Source of the DNA: an uncultured Sphingomonas sp. | GTDB lineage: Bacteria > Pseudomonadota > Alphaproteobacteria > Sphingomonadales > Sphingomonadaceae | Direction of reading: 5' to 3' | Assembly: GCA_913776045.1 (NCBI GenBank) | Contig: CAJYOI010000039.1 | Span: forward strand, 17,664-81,663 | DNA: 64,000 nucleotides | Shown: positions 5,672 to 55,594 of the stretch, in pieces | Numbering within the stretch: position 1 is the first letter of the stretch | Layout of the letters: every line of letters begins with the position of its first letter | Translations under genes and position numbers: made by a program | The notes under the pieces: generated by a model | What the model was told of the DNA's origin: nothing | Databases searched by the model: none | What the model saw: only the letters and a program-made list of their open reading frames with translations

Positions 5672-5977
5672 ATGGCGAAACTGAGTTCGATCAACAAGAA
5701 CGAGCGTCGCAAGCAGCTGGTGAAGAAGTACGCCGGCAAGTATGCGAAGCTCAAGGCGACCGCGAACGACGAAAGTCTCGACGAGACCGAGCGTCTGATC
5801 GCCCGCCTGAAGATGGCGGAAATCCCGCGCAACGGTAACCCGACGCGCATCCGCAATCGCTGCGAGCTGACGGGGCGCCCGCGCGCCTATTACCGTAAGT
5901 TCCGCCTCGCCCGTGTGATGCTGCGCGAACTGGCCAACAAGGGCCAGATCCCGGGTCTCACGAAGTCGAGCTGGTAA
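5672..5977 (+). CDS. rpsN: 30S ribosomal protein S14 (uS14), zinc-free type
   Basis: The 101-residue protein is the long form lacking the four-cysteine zinc site; the conserved C-terminal half reads [16 protein letters not shown] and ends in GLTKSSW. uS14 is a late-binding protein of the small-subunit head. It follows rplE after 16 bases. Confidence 0.97.
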
Positions 5978-5987
5978 GGGTAGCAAG

Positions 5988-6383
5988 ATGGCATTGACCG
6001 ATCCCCTGGGTGATATGCTCACCCGCATCCGCAACGGCCAGCGCGCCCGCAAGGACAGCGTGCTGACCCCAGGTTCGAAGCTGCGCCAGCGCGTGCTCGA
6101 TGTGCTCCAGCGCGAAGGCTACATCCGTGGCTACAGCGAAGAGCAGATGGGCCCCGCCGCCGGCATCCGCATCGAACTGAAGTATTTCGAAGGCCAGCCG
6201 GCGATCAAGCACGTCGCGCGTGTCTCGAAGCCGGGCCGCCGTGTCTATTCGGGTTCGACCGAACTGCCGCGCGTCCGCAACGGCCTCGGCATCACGATCG
6301 TCTCGACGCCGAACGGCGTTCTCTCGGACGCGGAAGCGCGTGAGCAGAACGTCGGTGGCGAAGTGCTGGCGGAGGTGTTCTGA
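5988..6383 (+). CDS. rpsH: 30S ribosomal protein S8 (uS8)
   Basis: The 131-residue protein starts [18 protein letters not shown] and ends with [10 protein letters not shown], both conserved in uS8. In E. coli uS8 is the translational repressor of the spc operon by binding a site near rplE; no such site was identified here. It shares one base with rplF. Confidence 0.97.
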
Positions 6384-6916
6384 TGAGCCGCATCGGCAAG
6401 AAGCCGGTCACGGTACCGGCAGGCGTCACCGCCTCGATCGACGGCCGCAAGCTGAACGTGAAGGGCCCGAAGGGCTCGCTCTCGCTCGATCTGCGCGACG
6501 AGATCACCTACGACGTCCAGGACGGCGGCATTTCGGTGCAGCCGGCCAACGACAGCAAGTCGGCGCGTGCCTTCTGGGGCATGCAGCGGACGATGGTGCA
6601 GAACCTGGTGACCGGCGTGACCGAGGGCTTTTCGAAGAAGCTGCTCATCACCGGCGTCGGCTACCGCGCCAACGCGCAGGGCAAGAAGCTGAAGCTGCAG
6701 CTGGGCTATTCGCACGACGTCGATCTCGACGTGCCGGAAGGCATCGAGGTCAAGACGCCGGATCAGACCACGGTCGAGATCTCGGGGTCGGACAAGCAGG
6801 CGGTCGGCCAGTTCGCCGCGGAAATCCGTCGCTGGCGTAAGCCTGAGCCCTACAAGGGCAAGGGCATCAAGTACGACGGCGAGTTCATCTTCCGCAAGGA
6901 AGGGAAGAAGAAGTAA
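6383..6916 (+). CDS. rplF: 50S ribosomal protein L6 (uL6)
   Basis: The 177-residue protein starts MSRIGKKPV and contains the two uL6 repeats; the C-terminal motif [15 protein letters not shown] is diagnostic. It lies near the factor-binding site of the large subunit. It shares one base with rplR. Confidence 0.98.
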
Positions 6917-7272
6917 TGACCAAGGGTCTCTCCCTCTTCGAGAAGCGGCGTCGCCGCAACCGCACCGCGCTGCGCGCCCGTGCGGGTACTCGCCCCCGTC
7001 TGAGCGTGCATCGCTCGGGCAAGCACATCTACGCACAGGTCATCGACGACACCGAGGGCAAGACCCTGGCTGCCGCGTCGACGCTGGGCAAGGACAATGC
7101 CGGCAAGACCGGCGCGACGATCGACGCCGCCAAGGCCGTCGGTCAGCGCGTGGCCGAGGCGGCGAAGGCCGCGGGCGTCACCCAGGTCGTCTTCGACCGC
7201 GGTGGCTTCCTGTTCCACGGTCGCGTCAAGGCGCTGGCGGAAGCCGCGCGTGAAAGCGGATTGGAGTTCTAA
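6916..7272 (+). CDS. rplR: 50S ribosomal protein L18 (uL18)
   Basis: The 118-residue protein has a basic N terminus ([13 protein letters not shown]), followed by [16 protein letters not shown] and the conserved end [21 protein letters not shown]. uL18 binds 5S rRNA with uL5. rpsE starts immediately afterwards. Confidence 0.98.
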
Positions 7273-36828: not shown

Positions 36829-36932
36829 GTCATTCCCGCAAGGCGAGGATACATTGTGGCTGACCTGAGTGAATAGAGCCGGAGAGCCGGACGTTCTGCC
36901 AGAATTGATCCCCGCCTGCGCGGGGATGACGG
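36829..36932. repeat. dispersed GTCATTCCCGC repeat, copy 1
   Basis: The element runs from GTCATTCCCGCAAGGCGAGG to GATCCCCGCCTGCGCGGGGATGAC, with inverted ends and an internal CCAGAATTGATCCCCGCCTG also present at 55311-55407. It fills the gap between moaE and the convergent oxyR and could serve as a two-way terminator. Confidence 0.8.
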
Positions 36933-46680: not shown

Positions 46681-46704
46681 GTCTCTGCTCCTGACCTTTC
46701 GGTC

Positions 46705-46797
46705 GTCATTCCCGCAAAGGCGGGAATCAATAGTCGCTGAAGGCGGTGGGTTTCACGTCCGTCAGCCAGAAGTTATCCCGGCCTTCGCGAGGATGGC
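46705..46797. repeat. dispersed GTCATTCCCGC repeat, copy 2
   Basis: The unit starts GTCATTCCCGCAAAGGCGGG, has ATCAATAGTCGCTGAA and CAGCCAGAA in the middle (shared with 55311-55407), and ends TTCGCGAGGATGGCAAT. It lies inside the phosphate operon between pstB and phoU. Confidence 0.8.
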
Positions 46798-52804: not shown

Positions 52805-53197
52805 ATGAGCGACGATAGCGACATCACCGGCGGCACCACGCGCCGCCGCGCCCTGCAACTGGGCGCGATCGGCGCGTCCGCGGTCGTTTCGATCCGGCCG
52901 GCGCTCGCACAGGCGGCAGGATCGGTGCTGACGTGCGAGATCCCGGTGCCCGATCCGGCACGCGCGGGGAAATATATCGCCGCCGACGGCTCGCTGGTCG
53001 ATCCGGGCACGCCGGGCGCCTTTCCGCCGGCAAGCGGCGCGTTCAAGGCCGAGGATGTGAAGCGTGCGATGTCGGGCGGGCAGCTGCCGGGCACCGATTA
53101 CGACCGGTCGAAGGCGTACACCAACTATATCCGACGGCTGCAGTCGGGGCAGAGCGGGTTCACCTGCTTCGCATCGTTGCAGATGCCGCGAGGCTGA
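52805..53197 (+). CDS. Tat-exported small protein leading the HPr-rel-A cassette
   Basis: The 130-residue product has a twin-arginine signal (TTRRRALQLGAIGASAVV, then ALAQA). The mature chain has two cysteines (VLTCEIPVPDPA and SGFTCFASLQM), a Gly/Pro-rich centre, and YTNYIRRLQSGQ near the end. It is divergent from phoR and first in the cassette, so it may be the substrate of the downstream enzymes, but this is inference. No family is recognised. Confidence 0.75.
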   Translation: MSDDSDITGGTTRRRALQLGAIGASAVVSIRPALAQAAGSVLTCEIPVPDPARAGKYIAADGSLVDPGTPGAFPPASGAFKAEDVKRAMSGGQLPGTDYDRSKAYTNYIRRLQSGQSGFTCFASLQMPRG

Positions 53198-53235
53198 CTT
53201 CAGACCTCCGTTTGCCTCGAGCAGATACTCCTCAT

Positions 53236-53356
53236 TCGTTCACCCTGCGCTTGTCGGGTCCCATCGAAGTGATACTTTGATGGGATCTTGGCCGAAGGGC
53301 GGCCTTCTTCTGCCAGGAAGAACGTACAGTGCCTCGACAGGTTCAGCACGAACGGG
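53236..53356. repeat. dispersed GTTCAYCCTGMRCTTGTCG repeat, copy 2
   Basis: The left arm reads CGTTCACCCTGCGCTTGTCGG and the right arm CTCGACAGGTTCAGCACGAACG, inverted to each other. It fills the gap between the Tat protein gene and the PqqD-like gene and runs into the latter's first codons. Confidence 0.7.
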
Positions 53357-53625
53357 AAGATGAGAGGTTCGTCGCCGCCTCCCCGGACGCGCTGCGGATC
53401 GAGCCGCTCGACACCCTGACCGCCGTTTATCATCGCGCGTCGGGCATCACGCACATCGTCGACAGCCCGGTGCCGGAACTGCTCGCAGCGCTCGACGAAC
53501 CGCGTACGTTGAACGATCTGCTGGCGCATCTCGCAACCGAATATGATCTGATCGATGCCGACCCGAATGCTTTGATCGAGCGACTGGTCGAACTCGAAGC
53601 CGCCGGACTGGTGTCGCGGCTGTGA
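53329..53625 (+). CDS. PqqD-like protein of the HPr-rel-A system
   Basis: The 98-residue protein has the PqqD/RRE-type fold: a conserved stretch RFVAASPDALRIEPLDTLTAVYHR, then ITHIVDSPVPELLAALDEPRT and LVELEAAGLVSRL. PqqD relatives bind peptide leaders for modifying enzymes. GTG at 53329 is the only in-frame start and lies within the dispersed repeat, so the first 10 or so residues are repeat-encoded. It overlaps the kinase gene by four bases. Confidence 0.85.
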   Translation: MPRQVQHEREDERFVAASPDALRIEPLDTLTAVYHRASGITHIVDSPVPELLAALDEPRTLNDLLAHLATEYDLIDADPNALIERLVELEAAGLVSRL

Positions 53626-54482
53626 GACACCTTCACCGCGTTCAGATCGGCCCGGCGTCGTTCCGGATCGGCAGCGACTGGCGTGAACCGATCGCGCAGG
53701 TCGCCGATCTGTACCGCGATTATCCCGCGCCGATCGACGGCGTGTGCGACTATACCGTCCGACTGTTCGCCGCACGGCCGTGGCGTCGGTTCGTGCGGCC
53801 GGCGATTACGCTGGGCGGCGATTTCACGCTTCCCGATGCGGTGCCGATGCCGCTGGAATGGGGCGTGCTCGCCGCTGAGATGGCGATGAACCTTCAGCTG
53901 GCGCTGGGGGAGCGGCGCTACCTGTTGCTCCATGCGTCGGCCGTCGAGCGGGACGGACGTGCCCTGCTGATGACCGGGCTGTCCGGCGCGGGCAAGTCCA
54001 CGCTCGCCGCGTTGCTGGCGACGCGCGGGTGGCGGCTGATGGGCGACGAATTCGCGCTGATCGACCCGGCGACCGGGCTGGCGCACGCCTTTCCGCGGCT
54101 GGTCAGCCTGAAGAACGAAAGCGTCGGCGTGATGGCCCGCGCCGTGCCGGGCGCGCGGTTCGGGCCGCTGCTGGCGGAAACGCCGAAGGGCGACCTGCGC
54201 CATCTTGTTCCCGACGCCACGGCGATCGCGCGTATGGCGGAGCCCGCGCGGCCGGCGTTAATGCTCTATCCGCGGTTCGGTTTCGATACAGCGGATCGCG
54301 AGGTCCCACCGGCGGAGGGCTTCGTCCGGCTGACCCAGGCGTCGACCAACTACACGGCGCTCGGCGAGGCGGGTTTCGATGCGCTCGTGCGGCTGGTGCG
54401 CGACGTGCCGGCGCAGGCGATCGACTATCCTGACACCGACGCCGCGCTGGCCCAGGTCGAGCGGTTGTGGGCGGCGCTATGA
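53622..54482 (+). CDS. HprK-related kinase A
   Basis: The 286-residue protein resembles the kinase part of HPr kinase: a HASAV motif at residues 104-108, Walker A GLSGAGKST at 119-127, and MGDEFALID around 140-147 for metal and catalysis. There is no PTS HPr gene in the window, so the substrate is unknown. GTG start overlaps the PqqD-like stop and its end overlaps the nucleotidyltransferase start. Confidence 0.9.
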   Translation: MRHLHRVQIGPASFRIGSDWREPIAQVADLYRDYPAPIDGVCDYTVRLFAARPWRRFVRPAITLGGDFTLPDAVPMPLEWGVLAAEMAMNLQLALGERRYLLLHASAVERDGRALLMTGLSGAGKSTLAALLATRGWRLMGDEFALIDPATGLAHAFPRLVSLKNESVGVMARAVPGARFGPLLAETPKGDLRHLVPDATAIARMAEPARPALMLYPRFGFDTADREVPPAEGFVRLTQASTNYTALGEAGFDALVRLVRDVPAQAIDYPDTDAALAQVERLWAAL

Positions 54483-55594
54483 GGAACGCGGATTTCCTCG
54501 TGCGCGCCCTGCGCGATCCGGCGAGCACCGCCACGCTCGATGGCGAGGGCTGGACGCAGCTGATCGCGATAGCGCGCGGCGAGCAGTTGGCGGGCACGCT
54601 GGCCGACCGGGTGCGCGGCGTCGACAAGCCGCCCGCCGCCGACCGCCTGCTGGCGGCCGCCTATGCCTCGGCGGAGCAAGGGCGGGTGCAGGCGCTGTGG
54701 GAGGCGGAGATGGCACGCCGCGCGCTATCGCCCCTCGGGCTGCCGGTCGTGCTGCTGAAGGGGACCGCCTATGTCGCCGCGGGGCTGGCGGCGGGGCGGG
54801 GACGCTCGATCGGCGATCTCGATATCCTGGTGCCGCGCTCCGCACTCGACGACGTCGAGCGCGCGCTGCTCGCGGCGGGGTGGGAGTGGGTGAAGCCCGA
54901 TCCGTACGACGACGCCTATTATCGGCGATGGATGCACGAGCTCCCGCCGCTGATCCACCGCGAGCGCGACAGGATGATCGACGTGCACCACACGGTCCTA
55001 CCGCTGACCGCGCGAATTACACCGAATGCGGGCGCGATGCTGGCGGATGCGGTGGTTCTGAAGGACGGACTGGCGGTGCTGTCGGGCGACGACATGATTT
55101 GCCATTCGGCGGCGCATCTGTTTGCGGATGGGGATTTGGCGGGGGGCTTGCGCAACCTCTGGGACCTGCAGTGCCTGTTCCACGAGGTGGCGACGCCGGC
55201 GCTATGGGAGCGGGCGCGGATGCATGGGCTGGAGGCGGCGGTCGCGCGGGCGTGGCGATTGGCGAATTCATTCTACGTCCAACGTCCGTCATCCCAGCAT
55301 TCCACACCTTCGTCATCCTCGCGAAGGCGGGGATCAATAGTCGCTGAACCTGCGGCTCTATCCGACGGCTCAGCCAGAATTGATCCCCGCCTGCGAGGGG
55401 AAGACGTCAGATCGGTCTTGGCCGACCGCTTCTACCGCCGCCGCCTGCTTGCGCGCGATGGTTGGGGGCGGGCGACCCGCCCGGTAACCCGGCTAGCCTT
55501 CTTCGTCCGCTCGCATTGGCTGCGGATGCCACCCGCGATGCTCGCGCGGCATCTGTTCACGAAGTGGCGCAAAGGCCATCGAGCGTCGGGATGA
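54479..55594 (+). CDS. nucleotidyltransferase-fold protein of the HPr-rel-A system
   Basis: The 371-residue protein has the minimal nucleotidyltransferase motif GRGRSIGDLDILVPR at residues 107-120, preceded by VVLLKGTAYV, and DVHHTVLP later, as in PF14907-type proteins. Residues about 270-310 (SRRRGSIVAEP to RIDPRLRGEDV) are encoded by an inserted dispersed repeat that keeps the frame. The 3' end overlaps gph by 38 bases, tail to tail. Its substrate is unknown. Confidence 0.85.
   Translation: MRNADFLVRALRDPASTATLDGEGWTQLIAIARGEQLAGTLADRVRGVDKPPAADRLLAAAYASAEQGRVQALWEAEMARRALSPLGLPVVLLKGTAYVAAGLAAGRGRSIGDLDILVPRSALDDVERALLAAGWEWVKPDPYDDAYYRRWMHELPPLIHRERDRMIDVHHTVLPLTARITPNAGAMLADAVVLKDGLAVLSGDDMICHSAAHLFADGDLAGGLRNLWDLQCLFHEVATPALWERARMHGLEAAVARAWRLANSFYVQRPSSQHSTPSSSSRRRGSIVAEPAALSDGSARIDPRLRGEDVRSVLADRFYRRRLLARDGWGRATRPVTRLAFFVRSHWLRMPPAMLARHLFTKWRKGHRASG
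55311..55407. repeat. dispersed repeat copy 3, inside a coding sequence
   Basis: The unit begins CGTCATCCTCGCGAAGGCGGG, contains ATCAATAGTCGCTGAA and CAGCCAGAATTGATCCCCGCC, and ends GAGGGGAAGACG. It shares blocks with 36829-36932 and 46705-46797. It lies within the nucleotidyltransferase gene without breaking the reading frame. Confidence 0.8.

Follow-up and report, generated by a model that had tools for sequence, protein, structure and literature searches.

A twin-arginine protein as the candidate substrate of an HPr-rel-A cassette in an uncultured Sphingomonas

Results

In a 64,000-nucleotide stretch of DNA from an uncultured Sphingomonas sp. (GCA_913776045.1, contig CAJYOI010000039.1, positions 17,664 to 81,663; hereafter the window), we analysed a cassette of four genes that sets a small protein with a putative twin-arginine translocation (Tat) signal beside a PqqD-like protein, an HprK-related kinase and a nucleotidyltransferase. 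A preliminary description had read four plus-strand genes here, the last three overlapping by 4 bp each. This reading was borne out, with all four open reading frames (ORFs) open and with overlaps at 53622-53625 (PqqD-like/kinase) and 54479-54482 (kinase/nucleotidyltransferase). The genes of the cassette, and two motifs within the first of them, are as follows.

52805-53197, plus strand: Tat-signal protein, candidate precursor and substrate; open ORF of 130 amino acids (aa) without family match, proposed from conservation and co-occurrence
52922-52936, plus strand: S40...C44 (Ser-x3-Cys), directly after the predicted cleavage site, second-choice modified serine; invariant in 26 sequences
53165-53176, plus strand: C121-x-x-S124, first-choice modified serine; both residues invariant in 26 sequences
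53329-53625, plus strand: PqqD-like protein, 98 aa, predicted recognition element (leader-binding subunit) of the kind found with ribosomally synthesised and post-translationally modified peptides (RiPPs); TIGR04353, AlphaFold2 (AF2) and Foldseek
53622-54482, plus strand: HprK-related kinase A, 286 aa; TIGR04352; H104 ... GxGKS (K125) ... D142-E143
54479-55594, plus strand: PF14907 nucleotidyltransferase, candidate second tailoring enzyme, 371 aa; D113 and D115 of GDLDILV and D168 conserved

Searches with NCBIfam and Pfam hidden Markov models (HMMs), the check that had been proposed for the four proteins, brought three of them over their cut-offs. The PqqD-like protein scored 52.2 bits against TIGR04353 (cut-off 35) and the kinase 238.4 bits against TIGR04352 (cut-off 200), both NCBIfam models, and the window cassette is thereby a member of the HPr-rel-A families. 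An adjacent PF14907 nucleotidyltransferase, which we chose ourselves as a further mark of such cassettes, was also present, scoring 162 bits (Pfam cut-off 31.2) over residues 23-266. The Tat protein had no NCBIfam or Pfam match at E 0.1. HPr-rel-A had been called established naming; this holds for the kinase and PqqD-like models, which alone among the matches listed carried the names 'HPr-rel-A' or 'HprK-related kinase A', and it does not extend to the Tat gene, which matched no model. The syntenic locus of Sphingomonas parapaucimobilis has the identical annotated gene order, with the Tat gene labelled 'hypothetical protein'.

We compared the window with the best 80 of 117 related loci from a kinase-based scan of genome contigs (the near loci). 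With start codons picked by script, the PqqD-like and kinase genes overlapped by 4 bp in 69 of 81 cases (80 fetched loci and the window), and the kinase and nucleotidyltransferase genes did so in 60 of 80 from the same set. Since these overlaps recur so often, the arrangement is not a matter of chance.

The Tat protein was examined in an alignment of 26 homologues. Its signal region carries a twin arginine at R13-R15, with R14 invariant and R13 and R15 at least 90% conserved, and an invariant ALA, with cleavage predicted after A35. No Tat-signal HMM reached its cut-off in 11 precursors, so the label rests on the twin arginine and the signal layout. The predicted mature protein has 95 aa and two cysteines. 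S40 and C44 are invariant, and the strongly conserved C-terminal tail GFTCFASLQ holds C121-x-x-S124; the precursor ends in SLQMPRG, so that its last residue is not a serine. Among the near precursors, Ser-x3-Cys occurred in 74 of 78 and Cys-x-x-Ser in 77 of 78. A sequence search with the Tat protein gave no match of value. In its AF2 model the conserved tail (118-130) has a predicted local distance difference test score (pLDDT) below 50, which fits a flexible modification site, although the model of the whole protein is weak.

The preliminary description had made its substrate model depend on the Tat gene regularly accompanying the kinase, and the model came through this test. A tblastn search detected a Tat homologue at 79 of the 80 near loci. 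We then surveyed 297 Sphingomonadales genomes with the Tat alignment (E 0.001) and, in the same draw, with TIGR04352 (E 1e-20). Of the 120 genomes with the kinase, 91 also had the Tat protein, and of the 177 without the kinase none did (Fisher p 3.7e-51, ignoring phylogeny), so every Tat-positive genome was also kinase-positive. Within the window's family the two lists were identical, comprising 74 genomes. In the other Sphingomonadales families, 17 of 46 kinase-positive genomes matched the Tat alignment, mostly weakly, and many of these matches span little beyond the signal region. The association did not depend on the genes being adjacent: of 16 genomes of one genus (g225), 13 retained both the Tat and the kinase gene although the two were unlinked, being separated by more than 5 kb or placed on different contigs. 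In genome G330 the precursor and PqqD-like genes stood together, apart from the kinase and nucleotidyltransferase genes (L158, L159), and in G311 the Tat match was not on the kinase contig.

In wider samples, TIGR04352 was over cut-off in 8 of 289 evenly sampled alphaproteobacterial genomes and in 51 of 397 genomes of Pseudomonadota. A plasmid collection held one cassette, on an 880-kb S. parapaucimobilis replicon, plus one short match under a DUF1861 gene. Two near loci deserve mention on their own. L077, a Sphingopyxis, was the sole one without a Tat gene beside the kinase, and L056 holds a cassette and neighbours of sphingomonad type although its record bears the name Arthrobacter sp. TPD3018, so that the record is probably mislabelled or contaminated.

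To place the Tat protein in a wider class, further loci around other kinases were fetched with larger stretches. Of 69 such loci 62 were counted, 56 of them outside the window's family; left out were five whose kinase lay far below the TIGR04352 cut-off (L119, L120, L226, L227, L228) and two with no kinase (L159, L162). The 62 comprise 61 kinases over cut-off and L155, just under it at 187.8 bits; L220 and L221 belong to one genome, and the window's-family loci (L118, L158, L160, L161, L163, L164) were kept out of the outside-family counts. In these further cassettes the PqqD-like gene is usually preceded directly by a gene for a small protein that differs from the Tat protein but is built on the same plan: a twin arginine, a hydrophobic stretch, A-x-A, and a mature part that is variable and has between one and six cysteines. 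We applied one fixed rule, asking for a twin-arginine ORF no farther than 700 bp upstream of the kinase. It was satisfied by 78 of 80 near loci and by 55 of the 62 further cassettes (55 of 67 with the five weak-kinase loci restored), and by 469 of 4700 control positions taken from the same loci at a distance of 3 kb or more. Outside the window's family such an ORF was found in 52 of 56 cassettes. Among the seven misses, L158 and L163 have the protein elsewhere in the genome (in L159 and L162), and L161 lies at a contig end. Ten further precursors were scanned, and none had a named NCBIfam or Pfam family over cut-off. L147 holds two twin-arginine precursors in one cassette (5704-6165 and 6534-7112), flanking the PqqD-like match, and the precursors of L153, L155 and L156 have long Asp/Gly-rich low-complexity inserts between two conserved cysteine regions.

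The mature parts of the 52 outside-family precursors fell into 21 groups without mutual BLAST match at E 0.001 (19 by a second cleavage rule). Despite this divergence, Cys-x-x-Ser was present in 44 of the 52, against a shuffle expectation of 15.2 (standard deviation (s.d.) 3.2), and the group-weighted count was 15.25 of 21 against 6.0 (s.d. 2.0). With the second cleavage rule the figures were 45 of 52 against 16.4, and 14.5 of 19 groups against 5.9. Related spacings stayed near expectation, namely C-x-S in 20, C-x3-S in 11, S-x2-C in 18, S-x3-C in 13 and C-x-x-T in 14 of the 52. We had also considered Ser-x3-Cys as a general motif and rejected it, because outside the window's family it was at chance level. 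As judged from the sequences, hypervariable precursors that keep Cys-x-x-Ser form a RiPP-like pattern.

The enzymes were characterised next to known folds. The AF2 model of the PqqD-like protein was confident (pLDDT 92.7). Its best Foldseek match was the lasso B1-leader complex TbiB1 (5v1v; probability 1.00, template-modelling scores 0.62/0.68, E 6.8e-3); lower matches were other enzymes containing a RiPP recognition element (RRE), PqqD and some unrelated proteins, and none had E below 0.001. Against Pfam PqqD the protein scored 15.6 bits, below the cut-off of 23.4. By this modelling it has a PqqD/B1-like fold and is a predicted RRE. In the kinase, H104, K125 and D142-E143 are at least 95% conserved among 81 near sequences, and the H...GKS/T...DE motif was found in 62 of 62 further cassettes (59 by pattern, 3 by eye). 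Its closest PDB sequences were HprK 1jb1 and 2qmh (E 0.0049); it scored 20.9 bits against Pfam Hpr_kinase_C (cut-off 33.3) and 21.5 against TIGR00679 (cut-off 240), and is thus not placed among housekeeping HprK proteins. In the nucleotidyltransferase, D113, D115 and D168 are at least 95% conserved among 80 sequences, and we take them to be catalytic from the general nucleotidyltransferase fold; a PDB sequence search with this protein gave no match at E 1.

In 51 of the 62 further cassettes the gene immediately after the kinase encodes a nucleotidyltransferase homologue. In seven loci a sulfotransferase homologue followed the kinase, preceding a nucleotidyltransferase in L200, L206, L212 and L230, and with no nucleotidyltransferase found in L229, L232 and L234; the three sulfotransferases that were scanned are tetratricopeptide-repeat (TPR) sulfotransferases. 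The second enzyme of the cassette can therefore change, because a sulfotransferase may accompany or replace the nucleotidyltransferase.

The genomic surroundings differ between families. Six ORFs flanking the window cassette were scanned: those to one side matched models for PstA, PstS and PhoR, and those to the other side matched models for phosphoglycolate phosphatase, GlmU and GlmS, with the PstS, PhoR and phosphatase matches below cut-off. Outside the window's family, four scanned loci held XrtA/PEP-CTERM polysaccharide genes near the cassette (TIGR03087, TIGR03088, TIGR03019, TIGR03007, TIGR03108 and exosortase A), and each of these genes occurred at one or two of the loci. Among the matches listed for the 46 outside-family kinase-positive Sphingomonadales genomes, 25 could be placed, and in 19 of these an exosortase lay within 20 kb of the kinase; in the remaining six the two were on different contigs. 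In the window's family the corresponding count was 0 of 20 genomes examined of 74. Mere presence of an exosortase was uninformative as a measure of dependence, since 242 of 297 genomes have one, and only the linkage is informative. In L149 exosortase A precedes the cassette and glmS follows it; because both are there, the glmU-glmS side found in the window is probably old and the exosortase side would have been lost.

The preliminary description had also stated that cyclase, protease and HPr were lacking, and we likewise saw none at the locus. No macrolactam cyclase or B2 protease was found among the cassette genes or the neighbours examined, no SipW-like signal peptidase or MsbA-like transporter among the neighbours examined in the window flanks and the annotated syntenic locus, and no HPr gene in the cassette, HPr not having been searched genome-wide. 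The same genome has a separate short HprK-like gene beside a sensor kinase gene and rapZ (G000 contig C46, L002), scoring 79.5 bits against TIGR00679 (cut-off 240), with rapZ at 317 bits (cut-off 244).

The window copy also carries repeats, one of which is the following.

55311-55406, no strand assigned: palindromic element resembling repetitive extragenic palindromic (REP) sequences, which keeps the reading frame of the nucleotidyltransferase gene and lies past the PF14907 match; inverted arms 55311-55355 and 55362-55406

This element corresponds mostly to gap columns in at least 90% of 80 aligned nucleotidyltransferases; an insert at the corresponding position is present in the near relative L003. 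Partial copies stand at 36898-36931, 46703-46741 and 46775-46795. At the beginning of the PqqD-like gene, the GTG start and the codons that follow it (53329-53360) lie within a repeat-like stretch also present in L003, and the gap between the Tat and PqqD-like genes is 131 bp in the window versus 3-7 bp in 45 of 80 pairs.

Discussion

Taken together, we consider it probable that the cassette serves to modify the adjacent small twin-arginine protein post-translationally and is dedicated to this protein. In the scheme that we propose, the PqqD-like RRE would bind the unfolded precursor by its N-terminal part, perhaps through the signal peptide, and present the precursor to the kinase. HprK-related kinase A would then phosphorylate a serine, most likely S124 of Cys-x-x-Ser, and the PF14907 enzyme would decorate the phosphoserine with a hexose or a nucleotide. 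These steps would take place in the cytoplasm, followed by Tat export and cleavage after A35 by the ordinary signal peptidase. Neither a dedicated protease nor a pump would be needed, because the precursor's own signal would use Tat and the housekeeping signal peptidase. We place the modified serine at S124 because Cys-x-x-Ser recurs across unrelated precursors. The product probably acts at the cell envelope, because cassettes outside the window's family often lie near exosortase and exopolysaccharide genes. The earlier suggestion of a reduced RiPP-like or protein-phosphorylating module with the Tat protein as its target is favoured by the co-occurrence, by the wider set of same-plan precursors and by the RRE fold model, and gained nothing from the mirror-tree analysis, which was unspecific.

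Several observations weigh against this proposal. In the mirror-tree analysis (65 taxa) the partial correlation between the Tat protein and the kinase was 0.61, lower than that between the Tat protein and a neighbouring phosphatase gene (0.71); because this control correlates better, the trees show no specific Tat-kinase co-evolution. The twin-arginine rule fires at 10% of control positions, and for four cassettes (L113, L208, L209, L233) no precursor was found nearby. Cys-x-x-Ser was absent from 8 of the 52 outside-family precursors (seven by the second cleavage rule), its position varies from near the C-terminus in some groups to near the N-terminus in others, and under the second cleavage rule S-x2-C was also mildly raised (24 of 52 versus 16.7, s.d. 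3.2). None of the 11 precursors scanned (the window's and ten others) reached an NCBIfam or Pfam Tat-signal cut-off, and the AF2 model of the Tat protein was poor (pLDDT 61.7), with no PDB fold match. Finally, in the linear polyphosphorylated peptides (LPP) of Bacillota, deletion of the nucleotidyltransferase is reported to have caused no detectable change (PMC13381572).

The alternative that survives best keeps the same system and overlaps with our proposal, differing only in the serine: phosphorylation would fall on S40, the fifth residue past the predicted cleavage site. This is a real if unlikely variant. S40 is invariant in the 26 aligned proteins, and in LPP the phosphorylated serine is S3 of the core (PMC13381572). 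Outside the window's family, however, Ser-x3-Cys was found in 13 of 52 precursors, the level of chance, versus the strong enrichment of Cys-x-x-Ser, and S124 remains our first choice.

Somewhat less likely still, the Tat protein could belong to the same pathway, for example as an envelope or exopolysaccharide factor, without being the substrate, and the target of the enzymes would be a different molecule, for instance a glycan or lipid intermediate. The exosortase linkage (19 of 25 placed genomes, among the matches listed) is in keeping with this, as are the XrtA-system sugar transferase, FemAB, chain-length and amidotransferase genes at several loci, the precursor not found for 4 of 62 cassettes, and the mirror-tree result. 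On the other hand, an RRE has no obvious job unless it binds a peptide, the hypervariable partner protein still keeps its Cys-x-x-Ser, and the Tat protein and kinase are kept together even where unlinked. We therefore favour modification of the Tat protein itself.

Decay of the window copy is a very unlikely account. The nucleotidyltransferase gene and the intergenic region do contain REP-like elements, and there is a repeat at the start of the PqqD-like gene. All four genes nevertheless have open frames, the nucleotidyltransferase insert keeps the frame and falls beyond the PF14907 match, and L003 shows an insert in the corresponding position. Control of sugar transport or nitrogen through phosphorylation of HPr, as by a housekeeping HprK, is the most improbable of all: the kinase is distantly similar to HprK, but its Hpr_kinase_C match is below cut-off, no HPr gene was seen in the cassette (with HPr not searched genome-wide), the PqqD-like and nucleotidyltransferase partners would be left unexplained, and we set the idea aside because the second HprK-like gene of the genome (contig C46) adjoins rapZ.

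Extending the proposal from the window to all HPr-rel-A loci is a more tentative step, which we regard as possible rather than probable. HPr-rel-A would then be a widespread proteobacterial system for modifying secreted proteins. The Tat signal would serve as a RiPP leader as well, read by the RRE, and the product would be a folded, exported phospho- or phosphoglyco-protein marked on the serine of Cys-x-x-Ser. The second enzyme would be exchangeable (a nucleotidyltransferase, a sulfotransferase or both), and the system would have a role in surface assembly linked to exopolysaccharide and exosortase. If true, this would join RiPP logic to Tat export and amount to a general bacterial pathway of protein phosphoglycosylation. 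In the literature that we searched, which lacked most subscription papers, there was no description of an HPr-rel-A system, nor of an exosortase paired with HprK. What is new here is the precursor class with its motif, the retention together of unlinked genes, the exosortase linkage, and the proposal that Tat and signal peptidase replace a protease and a pump. The HPr-rel-A families thereby gain a concrete candidate substrate class with a motif.

Comparison with known systems

Within HPr-rel-A (TIGR04352, TIGR04353) the cassettes studied here differ by their Tat-signal partner, which is over no NCBIfam or Pfam cut-off in the window and in ten others. ScmC is an HprK-like kinase of the SynChlorMet cassette, a RiPP-type cassette with radical SAM enzymes, and the window kinase matches it weakly at 27.3 bits, far under the cut-off of 125.

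Of the systems described, the closest is LPP of Bacillota (PMC13381572, Nat Commun 2026), which was first met in capsular polysaccharide loci and combines an RRE, an HprK-like kinase and an uncharacterised nucleoside triphosphate (NTP) transferase, the same three components as in the window. LPP precursors have 35-200 aa and are variable except for a conserved N-terminal region, and the core set has no lasso cyclase; LppK puts several phosphates on one precursor serine, not on threonine or tyrosine, cleavage of the leader falls to a SipW-like peptidase, and the set includes an MsbA-like transporter (PMC13381572). The main text of that paper makes no mention of Tat, twin-arginine, Proteobacteria, Pseudomonadota or Alphaproteobacteria. 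In contrast to LPP, no adjacent SipW-like signal peptidase or MsbA-like pump was seen beside the window cassette. The LPP leader motif YxxPxVLxHQxIxFETxxS is likewise absent from the first 60 residues of the window precursor, which have one tyrosine (Y57) and no tryptophan, and the window leader resembles a Tat signal. The cassette may thus work like LPP, yet we do not class it as LPP because two defining features of LPP were not seen in the neighbourhood and the leader.

The second likeness is to paeninodin- and pseudomycoidin-type tailoring (PadeK, ThcoK, SyanK, PsmK/PsmN), where an HprK-like kinase acts on a precursor serine and a nucleotidyltransferase-like second enzyme adds hexose to the phosphoserine. 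According to a review, PadeK and PsmK phosphorylate the precursor serine, and PsmN adds hexoses in pseudomycoidin (PMC9266682). The window cassette differs in that no lasso cyclase or B2 protease was seen beside it, its precursor does not end in serine, and the predicted mature part has 95 aa with two cysteines. Our best reading by analogy is that the cassette represents a Tat-exported counterpart of LPP and of paeninodin/pseudomycoidin tailoring. If this is right, the phosphorylating RiPP-type tailoring described for peptides of Bacillota and for lasso peptides would also serve Tat-exported proteins of Pseudomonadota, and would connect to exopolysaccharide assembly.

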